From contig NZ_OMPO01000001.1 of assembly GCF_900292035.1 (NCBI RefSeq), positions 1,433,192-1,497,191 on the forward strand: DNA of 64,000 bases, in the 5' to 3' direction. This document shows positions 12,916-19,456 of this stretch, piece by piece. The stretch is from Blastococcus sp. Marseille-P5729 (GTDB lineage Bacteria; Actinomycetota; Actinomycetes; Mycobacteriales; Antricoccaceae). Every line of letters starts with the position of its first letter. Position 1 is the first letter of the stretch. The translations under genes and the position numbers were made by a program. The notes under the pieces are model-generated. The model ran no database searches, was not told where the DNA came from, and saw only the letters and a program-made list of their open reading frames with translations.

Positions 12916-14334
12916 TTAGCTAGGCGGCAGGAGCACTCTGATGGTGGTGTCGCCTGGTCGACTCTCCAAGGAGACGCTCCCGCCGAAGGCACCGACGATC
13001 GCGGCCACCAGGGCGAGACCTAGGCCGACGCCTCCCTCGCGGTGCCGGGCCTGATCACCGCGAGTGAACCTCTCGAAGGCCTGCTGCGCCAGCTCAGGGG
13101 TGAATCCGGGCCCGTCGTCGTGGACGCTGAACCCGGAGGAGTCGCCTCTGACGGTGACGGTCGTGCCGGGAGGTGTGTGCTTGCGCGCGTTGGTCAGCAG
13201 GTTGGTGATGACTTGGTGCAGACGCTGCTCGTCGCCGCGCACCTCCAGGGCCTGCTCGGGCAGCTCTAGTCGCCACCGATGGTCCGGTGCAACAACTTGC
13301 GCGTCCGTGACGGCTTCGATGAGCACGCTGCTGAGGTCGACGGCCCCGATGGTGAGCGGCCGCCCGTCATCGAGGCGAGCCAGCAGGAGCAAGTCTTCGA
13401 CCAGCGACGTCATTCGCCGGGACTCCTCGTCGACCTTCGTCAGCGCGGTACGTAGCGCGGTCTCGTCGTCGGGGTGGCGACGAGCCAGTTCCGAGTAGCC
13501 GGCGATGATGGCCAGCGGCGTGCGCAGCTCGTGGGAGGCGTCGGCGACAAACTGCCGCACCCGTTGCTCGCTGCGGTGCCTGGCTGTGAGGGAGGACTCG
13601 ACGTGGTCGAGGAGTGTGTTCAACGCGCTGCCGACCTGGCCGACCTCGGTGCGGTCGTCGGTGAGCCGCTCGGGGACGCGGTCGTCGAGGGCGATGTCAC
13701 CGCTGGCGAGGGGCAGCTCGGCGACGCGGTGGGCGGTCTGCGCTACCTCGCGCAGCGGGGCGAGCTGGCGGCGTATGACGTAGGTACCGACAGCGGCGGC
13801 TGCCAAAACGCCGAGTAGTGTGGCGAGCACCTCGAGACGAATGAGGTGCTCGATCGTCTCGTCGACGTCGACGCGCGGCAGGCCGACGACGACCTGGCCT
13901 TCGTCCAGGTCGGTGACCAGGACCCGGTAGGAGCCGAGCCCGGGCAGGTCGACAGTCTGGACGTCGTCGGACGCGGAGAGCTCCGCGAGGGCGTCGAGCT
14001 GGCGCTCCTGAAGCTCGGTCGAGGTCCAGTTGGTATCCGAGCCCTCGGTGAGCACCAGGCCGTTGGGCTGACCTTCGTCGGGGAGCACGGCGCGTAACGT
14101 GCCGAACCGTTGGCCCGGTCCGAACCCGTCTGGTGCTCCGGACGGTCGAAGCCCGCCCGGCCCGAGGGTGGAGCGCATGGCGTCGCGGACGTCGGCGTTG
14201 AGCCTCTGCTCGAGGTTCTCGCGCATCGCCACGGTGGTCGCCGTACCGATGGCCGCAGCCGCGAAGGCCACCAGCAGCACCGCGACCGCGACCACTCGTG
14301 CTGTGAGGGTGACCGGCCCGCGGAGGACGCCCAT
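12916..14334 (-). CDS. Sensor histidine kinase (PhoR-like)
   Basis: Membrane histidine kinase of 472 residues. Two membrane helices (about 10-30 and 175-200) enclose an extracytoplasmic sensor of about 140 residues with Gly/Pro-rich GPGQRFG-type segments. Then come HAMP, HisKA with FVADASHELRTPLAIIAGYS, and HATPase with NLLTNARKHTP, DDGPGF and GGVGLGLALV. The start ATG overlaps the response-regulator stop (TGATG), so the pair is co-translated. The signal is unknown. The neighbouring Tat/dioxygenase operon carries the same type of upstream box and may be its target. Confidence 0.92.
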   Translation of the reverse strand: MGVLRGPVTLTARVVAVAVLLVAFAAAAIGTATTVAMRENLEQRLNADVRDAMRSTLGPGGLRPSGAPDGFGPGQRFGTLRAVLPDEGQPNGLVLTEGSDTNWTSTELQERQLDALAELSASDDVQTVDLPGLGSYRVLVTDLDEGQVVVGLPRVDVDETIEHLIRLEVLATLLGVLAAAAVGTYVIRRQLAPLREVAQTAHRVAELPLASGDIALDDRVPERLTDDRTEVGQVGSALNTLLDHVESSLTARHRSEQRVRQFVADASHELRTPLAIIAGYSELARRHPDDETALRTALTKVDEESRRMTSLVEDLLLLARLDDGRPLTIGAVDLSSVLIEAVTDAQVVAPDHRWRLELPEQALEVRGDEQRLHQVITNLLTNARKHTPPGTTVTVRGDSSGFSVHDDGPGFTPELAQQAFERFTRGDQARHREGGVGLGLALVAAIVGAFGGSVSLESRPGDTTIRVLLPPS

Positions 14335-15065
14335 CAGGGTGCCGGCTTCAAGACGTAGCCCGCACCGCGCATCGTATGGATCATGGGTTGCCGGCCCGCG
14401 TCGATCTTCTTGCGGAGATAAGAGATATACAGTTCGACGACGTTGGCTTGGCCACCGAAGTCGTAGTTCCACACCCGGTCGAGGATTTGCGCCTTAGACA
14501 GCACCCGCCGCGGGTTGCGCATCAGGAATCGCAGCAGCTCGAACTCCGTCGCCGTCAACGGGACCTCCTCCCCGGCCCGAAACACCTCGCGACTGTCCTC
14601 GTCCAGGGTGAGGTCGCCGACGGTGAGCACCGAGGACGACGCTTCCTGGCGCGCGCCGGCGCGACGCATCAGCGCCCGCAGCCGAGCCACCACCTCCTCG
14701 AGAGAGAACGGCTTGGTGACATAGTCGTCACCGCCTGCGGTGAGACCGGCGATTCTGTCCTCGACAGCATCGCGAGCGGTAAGGAACAACACCGGCACGT
14801 CAGGGTCGAGCGAGCGGATCCGACGCAGCACCTCCATGCCGTCGAAGTCCGGCAGCATGATGTCGAGCACAACGGCATCCGGGCGATGCTCCTTCGCGGC
14901 AGCCACCGCGCGGGAGCCGGTGTGGGCGGTGGACACGTGCCAGCCCTCGTAGCGCAGCGCCATCGCGATCAGTTCGGCAATGTTGACCTCGTCGTCGACG
15001 ACCAACAGCCTCAGCGGGGAGCCATCGGGTCGGGTGAGCGGGTGAGCCTGTTCCATGCGGGCCAT
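14334..15065 (-). CDS. OmpR-family response regulator (PhoP-like)
   Basis: Receiver domain (residues about 20-130: VVDDEVN, phosphoacceptor Asp in VVLDIMLPD, and FLTARD, GGDDYVTKPFSLEEVVARLR) plus winged-helix DNA-binding domain (ATEFELLRFLMRN; WNYDFGGQANVVELYISYLR; MRGAGYVL). The run GGDDYVTKPFSLEEV and the YDFGG/NVVE/SYLR motifs are very close to mycobacterial PhoP. The ATG at 15065 is 7 bases after a TAGCGT -10 (15073-15078), so the message is probably leaderless; ATG at 15056 is an alternative. A PhoP-type direct repeat abuts the -10, suggesting autoregulation. Confidence 0.92.
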   Translation of the reverse strand: MARMEQAHPLTRPDGSPLRLLVVDDEVNIAELIAMALRYEGWHVSTAHTGSRAVAAAKEHRPDAVVLDIMLPDFDGMEVLRRIRSLDPDVPVLFLTARDAVEDRIAGLTAGGDDYVTKPFSLEEVVARLRALMRRAGARQEASSSVLTVGDLTLDEDSREVFRAGEEVPLTATEFELLRFLMRNPRRVLSKAQILDRVWNYDFGGQANVVELYISYLRKKIDAGRQPMIHTMRGAGYVLKPAP

Positions 15066-15072
15066 ACTGACA

Positions 15073-15096
15073 ACGCTACCTGTGAGCCTGCTGTGT
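15073..15096 (-). promoter_or_regulatory. Promoter and PhoP-type box of the response regulator
   Basis: On the minus strand ACACAGC, four bases, TCACAGG (15079-15096) forms an 11-bp-spaced direct repeat. This closely follows the known mycobacterial PhoP box TCACAGC-N4-TCACAGC. It directly abuts the TAGCGT -10 (15073-15078). A related arrangement lies upstream of the dioxygenase-tat operon at 18002-18019. Confidence 0.6.
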
Positions 15097-15139
15097 AACT
15101 GCCTCTCGCTACGCCCTGTGTGTGAGCCATCGACCGACC

Positions 15140-15242
15140 GACCCTTGACGGTAAGAGCGCCGGTGTATCCCGCGGTGGCGTTGCCGGTGACGGGCGTGAG
15201 CATCACCGCGTCGGAGTCGTCGCCGCTGGTGGGGTCGTGCCA
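15140..15242 (-). pseudogene. C-terminal remnant of a second dioxygenase-like gene
   Basis: Out of frame with the end of tatB, the minus strand reads WHDPTSGDDSDAVMLTPV followed by TGNATAGYTGALTV. This matches the pattern of the C-terminus of the dioxygenase-like lipoprotein at 16913-17932 (GDSLQTLTV, then GSGYTGTLAV). The fragment has no start and runs on without a stop. It is best explained as the tail of a lost paralogue into which the tatB 3' end now runs. Confidence 0.55.
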
Positions 15243-15775
15243 GGCTGCTCGGCGTGGTCCTGGTCATCTCGGGTCTCGCGGTAGGCAGCGATCCGGCGCG
15301 GATCGTCGACCGGCAGGGAATCGATGCGGATCCGGCGTGGGTGTGCCGCGGAACCGGTGACGAGGTAGCGCTGACCGGGACGGACGCGGCTGGCCTCATC
15401 GTTTAGGGCCGCCTCATCGTTCAGGGCCGCCTCGGCGTTGGTGTCGGCGTGAGCGCCGTCGGCGGGTGGCAGCGGTTCGGCACCCTGGGTTCGGGGCGCG
15501 GGCACCGCGGCGGTCCCAGGAGGGGCCTCTTCGAGTACGTCGCGCACGATGCGGCGCGGGTCGTACTGGCGCAGGTCGAGCGCTGCCCAGTCCGATCTTT
15601 GCAGCGAGACGCCGATCTCCGCCTCGGCTGTGGCGCGTGTCTTTTCCAGCAGGCCGCGCAGGCCGCGTACGGTCTCGGCGAGCCAGTGGGCGTAGAGCGG
15701 GAGTCGCTGGGGACCGATCACGATCCCTGCGACGAGCGTGACCAGGAGAAGCTTCTCGAAGGTCAAACCGAACAT
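15203..15775 (-). CDS. tatB: Twin-arginine translocase subunit TatB
   Basis: Single-helix membrane protein with the TatA/B signature GPQRLP near residue 21 (FGLTFEKLLLVTLVAGIVIG), an amphipathic helix (residues 27-50) and a long hydrophilic tail, 190 residues in all. TatB with TatC forms the receptor for folded twin-arginine substrates. The tail contains a direct repeat (AALNDEAALNDEA) and its last codons overlap a dioxygenase remnant in another frame, so the C-terminus may be recent. Encoded 16 bases after tatC. Confidence 0.88.
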   Translation of the reverse strand: MFGLTFEKLLLVTLVAGIVIGPQRLPLYAHWLAETVRGLRGLLEKTRATAEAEIGVSLQRSDWAALDLRQYDPRRIVRDVLEEAPPGTAAVPAPRTQGAEPLPPADGAHADTNAEAALNDEAALNDEASRVRPGQRYLVTGSAAHPRRIRIDSLPVDDPRRIAAYRETRDDQDHAEQPGTTPPAATTPTR

Positions 15776-15791
15776 GGTGGCGACTCCTTGA

Positions 15792-16577
15792 TCACTCGGT
15801 CAGGGCGGGGTGTGGAAGGTCGGCGGTGAGGGCACGTCGTGCTACCCGTCGGTCGTGCAGGTGGGTGATGGCCATGGCGACACCGAACAGTGCGGACATG
15901 GGTGTGGCGACGAAGAACATCGACAACACGTCGGCGGCTGGCGTTACCAGCGCGCTGAAGAGGGTGATGATGACAACGATGACGCGCCAGCTCCTGCTCA
16001 GGGCCTGGGCCGACAGCAGCCCGAGGAAGTTCAGGACCACCACGAAGACCGGTAGCACGAACGCGATCCCGATGGCGAGCACGATCTTCAGGACGAAGTC
16101 CACGTAGTAGGACGCGGTGAGGATCGTGCTGTCCTCTGTCGAGGCGAACCCGGTGAGCATGTGCACCATCCGCGGGAAGAGTAGAAATCCAAAGGCGCAG
16201 CCGGTTGCGAACAGGGGCGCCGCGGTCGCGAGGAACCCGAGGGTGTACTTCTTTTCGCGGCGGGTCAGGCCCGGGGTGACAAACGCGAACACCTCCAGCA
16301 GCCAGACCGGGCTGGACACGATGACTCCGCAGAACAGTGCGATTTTGAGCTTGAGGTCGAACGCCCCGGTGACGGTGTCGTAGTTGAGGCTCGCGTTGCG
16401 GGAAGCGGCGAGTTCCTCGATCGGGGCACGCAGGAGGTTGAGGACCTGGTCGGAGAGCACGAAGCCGGCGAGGACGCCGACTGCCAGTGCCACCGCCGCG
16501 CGGATGCCGCGTCGACGCGCCTCCCGCAGATGGTCGGCGAGGGGCATCGTGCCCCGCGCGACGGTGACCGTGTTCAT
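15792..16577 (-). CDS. tatC: Twin-arginine translocase subunit TatC
   Basis: Polytopic receptor subunit of 261 residues with six predicted helices. MPLADHLREARRRG at the N-terminus is the TatC LxELRxR-like cytoplasmic motif. The conserved periplasmic and loop segments FVTPGLTRREKKY and SALVTPAADVLSMFFVATPM follow. Its ATG overlaps the tatA stop by four bases. With tatA before and tatB after, the whole translocase is in one operon. Most actinobacteria place tatA and tatC elsewhere, so this may be a second, dedicated set. Confidence 0.95.
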   Translation of the reverse strand: MNTVTVARGTMPLADHLREARRRGIRAAVALAVGVLAGFVLSDQVLNLLRAPIEELAASRNASLNYDTVTGAFDLKLKIALFCGVIVSSPVWLLEVFAFVTPGLTRREKKYTLGFLATAAPLFATGCAFGFLLFPRMVHMLTGFASTEDSTILTASYYVDFVLKIVLAIGIAFVLPVFVVVLNFLGLLSAQALSRSWRVIVVIITLFSALVTPAADVLSMFFVATPMSALFGVAMAITHLHDRRVARRALTADLPHPALTE

Positions 16578-16849
16578 GGCACCCTTCGCTCTGCGACCGG
16601 CACGAGCGCGGTGGGGACTCGGGTGTCGCCGCCGGTGCTGACAGCGTCCTGCCCGGTCGAGGACTGACTCGCAGGCTGAGGCCGCTGCGCGGCGGTACCG
16701 GTGTCGTCGGCGGTGTGGACCTCGTCCCTGAGGATGCGCACGGACTGACCGACGCCCTTGGCAAGAGCCGGGAGCTTGGCGGATCCGAAGATCAGCAGGA
16801 GGATCGCGAGGATGATCAGGGCATGCCAGCCCGTGAGGTTCTGCAACAT
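16574..16849 (-). CDS. tatA: Twin-arginine translocase subunit TatA
   Basis: Pore-forming subunit of 91 residues: an N-terminal membrane helix (WHALIILAILLLIFG), the FG hinge followed by SAKLPALAKGVGQSVRILRDE amphipathic helix, and a polar tail. GGAG lies seven bases before the ATG. It sits 63 bases downstream of the dioxygenase-like lipoprotein gene and overlaps tatC, so the order is substrate-A-C-B. Confidence 0.92.
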   Translation of the reverse strand: MLQNLTGWHALIILAILLLIFGSAKLPALAKGVGQSVRILRDEVHTADDTGTAAQRPQPASQSSTGQDAVSTGGDTRVPTALVPVAERRVP

Positions 16850-16912
16850 TGGGGAACTCCGTGGTGATGGTGGATGGGTGAAGTGATCGATGGTGCGGCT
16901 GGACAGGTGGGA

Positions 16913-17932
16913 TCAGGAGGGGCTGGCGCCGGAGTCACCGGGGCCGCCTCTCGGCGGGTCGCCCGACGGGGGTGCGCCGCCGTCACCGGGGGGCTGCCCT
17001 CCCTGTGGGCCTCCGCCCATGTCGCCGCTGGAGACCTCGGTCGTGGTGTCGATGGCAACTGCGAGGGTGCCGGTGTACCCCGACCCGGCGTCACCGCTCA
17101 CGGTGAGAGTCTGCAGCGAGTCGCCACCATCGGCGAAAATGGCATCGTCCTCGATGCTGGTGCCGACGCCAGCGAGGTTTTCTGTCGAGCCCGCGTAGGC
17201 GTCAAGGGCATAGACCTCGCTCAGCATGTCGGCTGGAAAGGCGAGCTGGGAGGTCGCGATCGCGTTGCTGACGTTGGTTGCGGACTCCACGTCGGGGTAG
17301 ACCTCGAAGTGGATGTGGGTCCAGCGACCGGCGTAGCACCCCGGGACGATCGTCTGGAAGGTCAGCTCGCCGTTGGAGTCGGCGACCTGGATGCCGCGCA
17401 GGTAGGTCTCATCCTCCACTCCTTCGGAGTACATGGAGTACAGACCTGCCGCATCGCAATGCCAGACGTAGACCGCGGCGTCCTCGAAGGGGACGTTCCC
17501 GTTCGCCATGTCGGTGACCATGAATGTCAACGTCAGGGGCACACCGTCGACTGTGGTGCCGCCATCGAGGCTGGAGGTGATGTCGCTGCGAACGATGCCC
17601 GACTCCTCGAGGATGTTGACGTCGTTTGTGCCGTCGGCCGGATAGGGGCCGTTGGTCTCCTGTGGGATCTCGCCGTCGGAAGCTGTCGACGTCGCAGCAG
17701 AGCCGGTGGTCGGATCGCTCGTGCTCGACTCAGTGCTGTCAGAGCCGCAAGCAGCCAGCGCGGCCGCACCGACGCCAACGCCGACCAAGCTGAGTACGCG
17801 ACGGCGTGTCACCAGCGTCTTGATGTCGAAGCCCGCGCCTTGGTCGACGACCTCCTCGGAGGGGCGGCTGAGAAGCCGGCCCTCATAGGCGGGCCCTTCC
17901 GGAGTCTGTTCGGGTTCGGGAATGCGATTCAC
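16913..17932 (-). CDS. Tat-exported intradiol-dioxygenase-like lipoprotein
   Basis: Predicted extracytoplasmic protein of 339 residues. A long N-region precedes TRRRVLSLVG (twin arginine, about residue 45), a hydrophobic stretch and a lipobox LAAC. The mature part has the intradiol ring-cleavage dioxygenase fold with the iron-ligand pattern conserved: Tyr in DAAGLYSMY, Tyr in VPGCYAGRW, and two His in THIHFEVY. The tail is Gly/Pro-rich. The GTG at 17932 has AGGAGG six bases upstream; longer readings lack a ribosome site. It is the first gene of an operon with tatACB, so it is very likely the main cargo. Substrate (catechol-like, humic or cell-wall aromatic) is unknown. Confidence 0.85.
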   Translation of the reverse strand: MNRIPEPEQTPEGPAYEGRLLSRPSEEVVDQGAGFDIKTLVTRRRVLSLVGVGVGAAALAACGSDSTESSTSDPTTGSAATSTASDGEIPQETNGPYPADGTNDVNILEESGIVRSDITSSLDGGTTVDGVPLTLTFMVTDMANGNVPFEDAAVYVWHCDAAGLYSMYSEGVEDETYLRGIQVADSNGELTFQTIVPGCYAGRWTHIHFEVYPDVESATNVSNAIATSQLAFPADMLSEVYALDAYAGSTENLAGVGTSIEDDAIFADGGDSLQTLTVSGDAGSGYTGTLAVAIDTTTEVSSGDMGGGPQGGQPPGDGGAPPSGDPPRGGPGDSGASPS

Positions 17933-18001
17933 TGAGGTCCTCCTGCGGATCGATGGTGTGGTCTCGATGCATGCCACATTGGCCGCGCTCCTCATGGATT
18001 T

Positions 18002-18019
18002 CATGTGCGCTGCTTGTGT
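18002..18019 (-). promoter_or_regulatory. Second PhoP-type box, upstream of the Tat operon
   Basis: Minus strand ACACAAG, four bases, GCACATG, preceded by AGTT exactly as at the response-regulator promoter. Twelve or so positions agree with the 15079-15096 box, with the same 11-bp periodicity. It lies 70 bases before the dioxygenase-like start. Confidence 0.5.
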
Positions 18020-18055
18020 AACTCCTGTGGATGTCGCGAGCGGGGTCTGATGGCG

Positions 18056-18244: not shown

Positions 18245-19456
18245 ATGACTGACTCCGCTCGCACCCAAGTCGCCATCATCGGAGCCGGCCCCGCCGGCCT
18301 CTATCTGGCCCGTCTGCTCTAGCTACAGGGAATCGAGAGCATCGTGGTCGAGGCGCGAGACCGGCCGTACGTCGAGGCGCGGGTCCGCGCGGGAATCCTG
18401 GAGCAGGGCTCGGTGGACGTCCTGCGCGAGATCGGTGTCGGCCAGCGGATGGACCGCGAGGGGATCGTGCACGCCGGCACCCAGCTGCGCTTCGACGGCA
18501 CCAACCACCGCATCGACTTCGAGGCCCTCACCGGCCGCAAGGTCATGGTCTACGGTCAGCAGGAGGTCGTGAAGGACCTCATCGCCCAGCGCGTCGCAGA
18601 CGACCTACCCATCCACTTCGGCGTCAGCGACGTACAGCTGCACGACCTGACCAGCACCAGCCCCCGCGTGACCTACACCGACGAGAACGGCGCCCGGCAG
18701 GAGATCGTGGCCGACTACATCGCCGGCTGCGACGGCTACCACGGCGTCAGCCGCGGCCACATCCCCGCCGGCCACCTCACCGAGTTCGAGCGCATCTACC
18801 CCTTCGCGTGGTTCGGGATCCTGGCCAACGCCAAGCCCTCCTCCGACGAGCTGATCTACGCGCACTCGCCCCGCGGGTTCGCGCTGCACAGCCTGCGCAG
18901 CGACAGCGTGGTCCGCAACTACCTGCAGGTCGCGCCGGGGACCGACCCGAATGCGATGTCCGACGACGAGATCTGGGATGAGTACGACCGACGGTTCGCC
19001 TTGCAGGATGAGCCGTTCACGATCAACCGCGGCGAGATCACCGAGCGGGTGGTCACGCCGATGCGGTCATGGGTGGTCACGCCGATGCGCTACGAGCGCC
19101 TCATGCTGGCCGGCGACGCCGCCCACACCGTGCCGCCGACCGGCGCGAAGGGGATGAACCTGGCCGTGGCGGACGTCGTCGTCCTCGCCGAGGGACTGAC
19201 CAAGGCGCTGCAGTCGAATGACGAGTCGGGGCTCGACCAGTACTCCGACATCGCCGTACGCCGGGTGTGGCGCGCCGAGCACTTCAGCTGGTGGATGACC
19301 TCCATGCTGCATCGCTTCCCACCGGAGCACCCCGAGGGTGACGAGTTCGGGCTGCAGATGCAGCTATCGCAGCTGCGCTACTACACCAGCAGCGAGGCGG
19401 CGATGCGCACGCTCGCAGAGAACTACGTCGGTCTGCCGTTCGGCGCCGCGCTGTAG
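18245..19456 (+). pseudogene. pobA: 4-hydroxybenzoate 3-monooxygenase with amber stop at codon 26
   Basis: PobA hydroxylates 4-hydroxybenzoate to protocatechuate, feeding the pca genes nearby. From ATG 18245 the reading frame gives TQVAIIGAGPAGLYLARLL, the FAD-binding GxGxxG motif, then TAG at 18320-18322. It then continues in the same frame without further stops to 19456 through RVRAGILEQGSVDVL, DYIAGCDGYHGVSR, LAGDAAHTVPPTGAKGMNLA and ENYVGLPFG. A single G-to-T change (GAG to TAG) explains it. Restart at GTG 18344 would lose the FAD-binding motif. Sequencing error or suppression cannot be excluded; otherwise the gene is broken recently. Confidence 0.85.

Follow-up and report, generated by a model that had tools for sequence, protein, structure and literature searches.

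In Bacillus subtilis, secretion of PhoD strictly requires the twin-arginine translocation (Tat) proteins TatAdCd, the phoD-tatAdCd genes are induced by phosphate starvation, and other cargo is handled by a second Tat system (PMC3068169). In Mycobacterium tuberculosis, the base-contacting residues of the response regulator PhoP in the crystal structure are Asn212, Val213, Glu215, Ser216, Tyr217 and Tyr220, of which Asn212 bonds to the third base of CACAG; PhoP needs a strict 4-bp spacer and binds cooperatively to three and four repeats (PMC4832192). Two tatC loci are listed for a few Actinobacteria in a survey that makes no mention of a dioxygenase in its text (PMC3827258). Here, we analysed a 64,000-nucleotide stretch of Blastococcus sp. 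Marseille-P5729 (contig NZ_OMPO01000001.1, positions 1,433,192 to 1,497,191; hereafter the window), in which genes for a PhoP-like two-component system adjoin an operon for a dioxygenase and Tat proteins. Judging from sequence comparison, we consider it probable that this is an autoregulated PhoP-type system, the conserved target of which comprises a dioxygenase at the cell surface and a Tat translocase dedicated to it. The evidence lies in the boxes before both transcription units, their conservation and orientation in relatives, the kinship of the regulator with PhoP, the conserved operon, and the catalytic and export residues of the dioxygenase. The features of the locus are as follows.

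12916..14334, minus strand: sensor histidine kinase (HAMP, HisKA and HATPase_c domains)
14334..15056, minus strand: PhoP-like OmpR-family response regulator, 240 amino acids (M. tuberculosis PhoP as best solved relative; regulator tree)
15064..15069, minus strand: candidate −10 element of the regulator promoter, CAGTAT, a few bases 5′ of the start codon (from aligned promoters)
15079..15100, minus strand: predicted operator of the regulator gene, AGTT plus two 11-bp units (ACACAGC-N4-TCACAGG)
15203..15775, minus strand: tatB-like gene (NCBIfam TatB models below their own cut-offs; kept gene order)
15792..16577, minus strand: tatC, the second TatC of the genome (PF00902; other TatC at C1:329763)
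16574..16849, minus strand: tatA (PF02416; NCBIfam TatA models below their own cut-offs; kept gene order)
16913..17932, minus strand: intradiol-type dioxygenase, predicted secreted, 339 amino acids (PF00775; residues near-invariant in 61 relatives; alignment to 4ilt, 5vg2 and 6bdj)
17976..17981, minus strand: candidate −10 element of the operon, CAATGT, position approximate (from aligned promoters)
17991..18030, minus strand: predicted operator of the dioxygenase-tat operon, CCACAGG-AGTT / ACACAAG-CAGC / GCACATG-AAAT, then degenerate CCATGAG

Both boxes proposed in the first-pass annotation were found on the minus strand: AGTT-ACACAGC-AGGC-TCACAGG at 15079–15100 before the regulator gene, and AGTT-ACACAAG-CAGC-GCACATG at 18002–18023 as the core of the operon box. 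The former, described there as close to the mycobacterial PhoP box, differs from TCACAGC-N4-TCACAGC by two mismatches. The operon array extends beyond this first description, with an extra unit, CCACAGG (18024–18030), ahead of the core and a degenerate one, CCATGAG (17991–17997), behind it; it thus consists of three clear and one degenerate head-to-tail units with an 11-bp period, and the regulator site of two clear units. The pattern AGTTACACA-N7-CACA matched the window exactly twice, at the two boxes, and ACACA-N7-CACA was found six times in the 3.33-Mb genome (three times for the reversed control), two of these six being the same boxes. The triple CAYA array at 11-bp spacing occurred only once in the genome, at the dioxygenase promoter. 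Among 127,936 window positions scored with a regulator-promoter model, the dioxygenase array came first and the regulator box sixth. An untied profile made from the regulator promoters of other genomes matched the genome at E≤2 only at the regulator box. None of five other regulators of the same type examined in the genome carried such an array upstream. Several weak genome-scan matches that fall inside other reading frames were discounted as likely chance occurrences. Allowing up to three mismatches, the PhoP consensus gave 10 matches in the window against 7.8 expected, which is not significant alone; the weight of the evidence rests on the shared pair and its conservation.

A pattern-based scan of 84,980 genomes yielded 63 dioxygenase loci, all in Actinobacteria. 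The regions upstream of the regulator gene in relatives contained head-to-tail YCAYAG units at 11-bp spacing. Pairs of units at this period were detected in 28 of 35 regulator promoters (0.7 after shuffling) and 23 of 64 dioxygenase promoters (1.4 after shuffling), and period 11 was the clear maximum in both sets, in agreement with the repeat period noted initially. Since the strict two-unit count misses many CCAG-type promoters of Rhodococcus and Demequina as well as that of the window itself, we adopted a tied 3×11-bp model for which the training set comprised regulator promoters alone, without those from the window or genome G002, and scanned whole loci (mostly about 17 kb) on both strands. 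The best match in the locus fell in the dioxygenase promoter in 40 of the 63 loci (0.36 expected), and this promoter was among the top three matches in 48. Models with other periods succeeded in 1–6 loci, models with shuffled columns in a mean of 2.9 (maximum 10), and the opposite orientation in none. In Nocardioides zeae, a profile made from both promoter types detected the regulator and dioxygenase promoters only; the same two promoters carry the two triple CAYA arrays of this genome. The three such arrays of Nocardioides 21Sc5-5 belong to the regulator, a dioxygenase paralog and a lipoprotein.

The regulator was likewise confirmed to be strikingly PhoP-like, with bit scores of 283 to M. tuberculosis PhoP, 217 to PrrA, 166 to RegX3 and 163 to MtrA. 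In a tree of 78 regulators, its clade is the sister of the PhoP branch of M. tuberculosis, Rhodococcus, Dietzia and Corynebacterium, and PrrA and the paralogs from the same genome fall outside the PhoP clade. Five of the six base-contacting residues are identical to those of PhoP, the exception being Ser216, which is replaced by Leu; the wing residue Arg237 is also kept. The spacer requirement and cooperativity of PhoP fit the operon array. At the third base of the dioxygenase boxes, genomes with Asn212 have C in 13 cases and T in none, and those with Ser212 have T in 25 and C in four. The Asn212 set (Nocardioides, Tessaracoccus and the window genome) carries CACAG and the Ser212 set (Microbacteriaceae and G002) mostly CATAG, in both promoters. 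In a Gly212 group, the T's are those of Microbacteriaceae paralogs, the majority of which co-occur with a Ser regulator in the same genome. A second PhoP-like paralog of Microbacterium (L106 and L109) combines Gly212 with upstream repeats of the CTCACCG type, and its specificity has perhaps diverged.

The dioxygenase carries the twin-arginine pair R43R44, the lipobox Cys62 and the iron ligands Y165, Y200, H206 and H208, all near-invariant in 61 relatives. Its PF00775 match is above the cut-off, and the proteins of known structure related to it are intradiol dioxygenases, among which those of spider mite and Streptomyces are closest. TatC and TatA are above the Pfam cut-offs, whereas the tatB-like product has no Pfam match. 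Directly 3′ of the dioxygenase gene, tat genes were present in 41 of the 63 loci, nearly always in the order tatA, tatC, tatB. The dioxygenase gene was present in 43 of the 297 genomes sampled from the class. It is conceivable, and we give this a minor but real chance, that the tat genes form a general second Tat system that shares the operon without being dedicated to the dioxygenase. In line with this, about a third of the dioxygenase loci lack neighbouring tat genes, so that another Tat set must export the enzyme there, and in Microbacterium sp. T32 (G030) the second TatC is encoded on a different contig from the dioxygenase. In favour of a dedicated translocase, the operon order is widely kept and, in the 12 genomes checked, a second TatC was found only alongside the dioxygenase: the nine with the dioxygenase have two TatC, and the three without it (G001, G003 and G004) have one.

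As for the mechanism, an extracytoplasmic signal would activate the kinase, and the regulator, presumably in its phosphorylated form, would assemble as a cooperative row of head-to-tail subunits on the 11-bp repeats, activating its own gene and dioxygenase-tatA-tatC-tatB. The TatABC proteins would then export the folded, iron-loaded dioxygenase, presumably as their preferred cargo, and the lipobox cysteine would anchor it outside the cell, where it may open catechol-type rings. By eye, both window promoters, like those of many relatives, have a candidate −10 element about 16–17 bp past the point where the last unit begins. Activation is likely because the last repeat occupies the place of the −35 element, and a consensus scan of the operon promoter detected no good sigma-70 −35/−10 pair. 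Sites of known OmpR-family activators are arranged in a comparable manner, and the position and orientation of the array, with its last unit at −35, resemble them; this analogy, together with the poor sigma-70 match, makes it unlikely that the regulator represses the operon, even though the sign of regulation is not given by sequence alone and only a short distance separates the array from the −10 element.

Another OmpR-family regulator, for example MtrA or RegX3, might read the boxes, the adjacent two-component system being a mere neighbour. Similar cores in short direct repeats occur across the family, MtrA recognizing two loosely conserved repeats of about 6 bp (PMC5650626), and the two-component system lies away from the operon in most genomes. 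However, the arrays precede the gene of the PhoP-type regulator itself across genera and are absent upstream of all five other regulators that we examined in the genome, the box base changes together with the recognition residue, and the PhoP contact residues are kept, so that we regard this explanation as quite improbable. That the two short boxes resemble each other by chance and are unconnected in regulation is hardly credible: although matches to the PhoP consensus with up to three mismatches are expected several times per window, the near-uniqueness of the boxes in the genome, their cross-genus specificity in period, orientation and position, and the tied-model result with its period, shuffle and orientation controls led us to reject it.

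Several observations weigh against an autoregulated PhoP-type system with a dedicated dioxygenase-tat target. The untied regulator-promoter profile, which was too strict, did not recover the dioxygenase box of the window in the genome scan, and the profile that gave the two window sites as sole genome matches (E≤3) included both in its training. No recognisable array precedes the dioxygenase gene in Corynebacterium, Agrococcus and Brevibacterium album, and the loci without adjacent tat genes, already described, belong here as well. The covariation between residue 212 and the box base mostly reflects a split between Microbacteriaceae and the other taxa and is phylogenetically confounded, yet it agrees with the PhoP structure. 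Moreover, in M. tuberculosis the sites at the phoP promoter are reported to lie 3′ of the transcription start (PMC3413638), which differs from the layout that we propose.

The arrangement of the two modules was only partly conserved in relatives. Only in the window and in one genome of the same genus are the regulator and kinase genes neighbours of the operon; in the latter they lie beside dioxygenase-tatACB in inverted orientation, facing the operon. The condition named at first as refuting the link, namely an arrangement absent from every relative, therefore does not hold. The box is kept across many genera but adjacency is rare, so that regulation would normally act in trans; a purely local link to the two-component system was rejected, as the modules are not adjacent in most genomes. 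In several other genera, a PhoP-type regulator is encoded 6–50 kb from the dioxygenase on the same contig, which by a rough count exceeds chance placement, with the cases clustering by genus. In the 78-regulator tree, the regulator of the window clusters with those of Nocardioides and not with those of its own family, of which only two of five genomes have the dioxygenase; the module was therefore probably gained horizontally, and perhaps replaced the native regulator. With these qualifications, the comparative evidence supports what was first suggested: a PhoP-type box common to both promoters, probable autoregulation, and a cargo gene encoded in one operon with tat genes.

The intergenic gaps between the dioxygenase, tatA, tatC, tatB and regulator genes are 63, −4, 16 and 146 bases, the regulator box lies within the last of these, and the start codon of the kinase gene overlaps the stop codon of the regulator gene. 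No terminator was seen on the minus strand in the tatB–regulator interval, so read-through from tatB into the regulator gene is possible. Divergent from the dioxygenase operon is pobA, encoding 4-hydroxybenzoate 3-monooxygenase (18248–19456, plus strand), with an in-frame TAG at 18320–18322. As this stop follows just after the FAD-binding start, pobA is likely to be a pseudogene unless translation begins at a start codon further 3′.

Arrays were also detected at other genes. Nocardioides 21Sc5-5 and Rhodococcus SMB37 have second, divergent dioxygenase copies (L157 and L174), each behind its own 11-bp array. Further arrays precede genes for a DUF3500 lipoprotein, small lipoproteins with no Pfam match and a PMT_2 glycosyltransferase (L167, L168, L173 and L040:10040-10675), all of which are possible further members of the regulon. 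A TatA-like gene of Nocardioides 21Sc5-5 (L179) is preceded, at a distance of about 25 bases, by a weak array (E 0.59). We tentatively speculate, with more doubt than confidence, that the actinobacterial PhoP-type regulon outside Mycobacterium is very small and old, with the regulator gene, the surface intradiol dioxygenase and in many cases a dedicated Tat system as its core, and that the wide virulence regulon of M. tuberculosis PhoP grew later out of a response to extracellular catechols or a related stress. Taken as probable, the proposed system would tie the family of a tuberculosis-virulence regulator to a conserved target outside Mycobacterium, namely an extracellular enzyme for ring cleavage and the export machine that comes with it. 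The system also offers a testable recognition code, in regulator position 212 and the base that it reads, and a small regulon through which the signals sensed by PhoR-type kinases may be approached in harmless soil bacteria.

With respect to known systems, the first-pass annotation knew of none with this composition. We found no description of a PhoP-controlled dioxygenase-tat operon in the open-access literature, but phoD-tatAdCd of B. subtilis provides a precedent (PMC3068169). In both cases, a Tat cargo gene lies directly 5′ of its own tat genes and is induced by a signal jointly with them, presumably so in the window. The window operon fits this kind, its cargo with R43R44 and a lipobox being encoded with a second tat set. 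It differs from the B. subtilis operon, which encodes a phosphodiesterase as cargo, responds to phosphate starvation and has no tatB. Bacillus PhoP belongs to a different branch, and we know of no two-component genes adjacent to phoD-tatAdCd. The dioxygenase shares its fold with the intradiol dioxygenases 4ilt and 4ilv, which we take to be secreted Streptomyces enzymes, and 5vg2 and 6bdj from spider mite, with the Tyr-Tyr-His-His iron-site region aligned; unlike these, it is a Tat-type lipoprotein, has its own tat genes and has boxes in common with a two-component system. To our knowledge, neither a secreted dioxygenase nor a second Tat system is a target of M. tuberculosis PhoPR. The two systems have in common the related regulator clade, the direct-repeat box, the contact residues and autoregulation (PMC4832192, PMC3413638), the last of these being predicted here, whereas the M. 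tuberculosis regulon comprises about 2% of genes (PMC4038636) and very few arrays were detected here. An effect on Tat under PhoP control is also known from M. tuberculosis, where the small RNA Mcr7 lowers translation of the housekeeping tatC (PMC4038636), whereas in the window the second tat operon itself bears the boxes.

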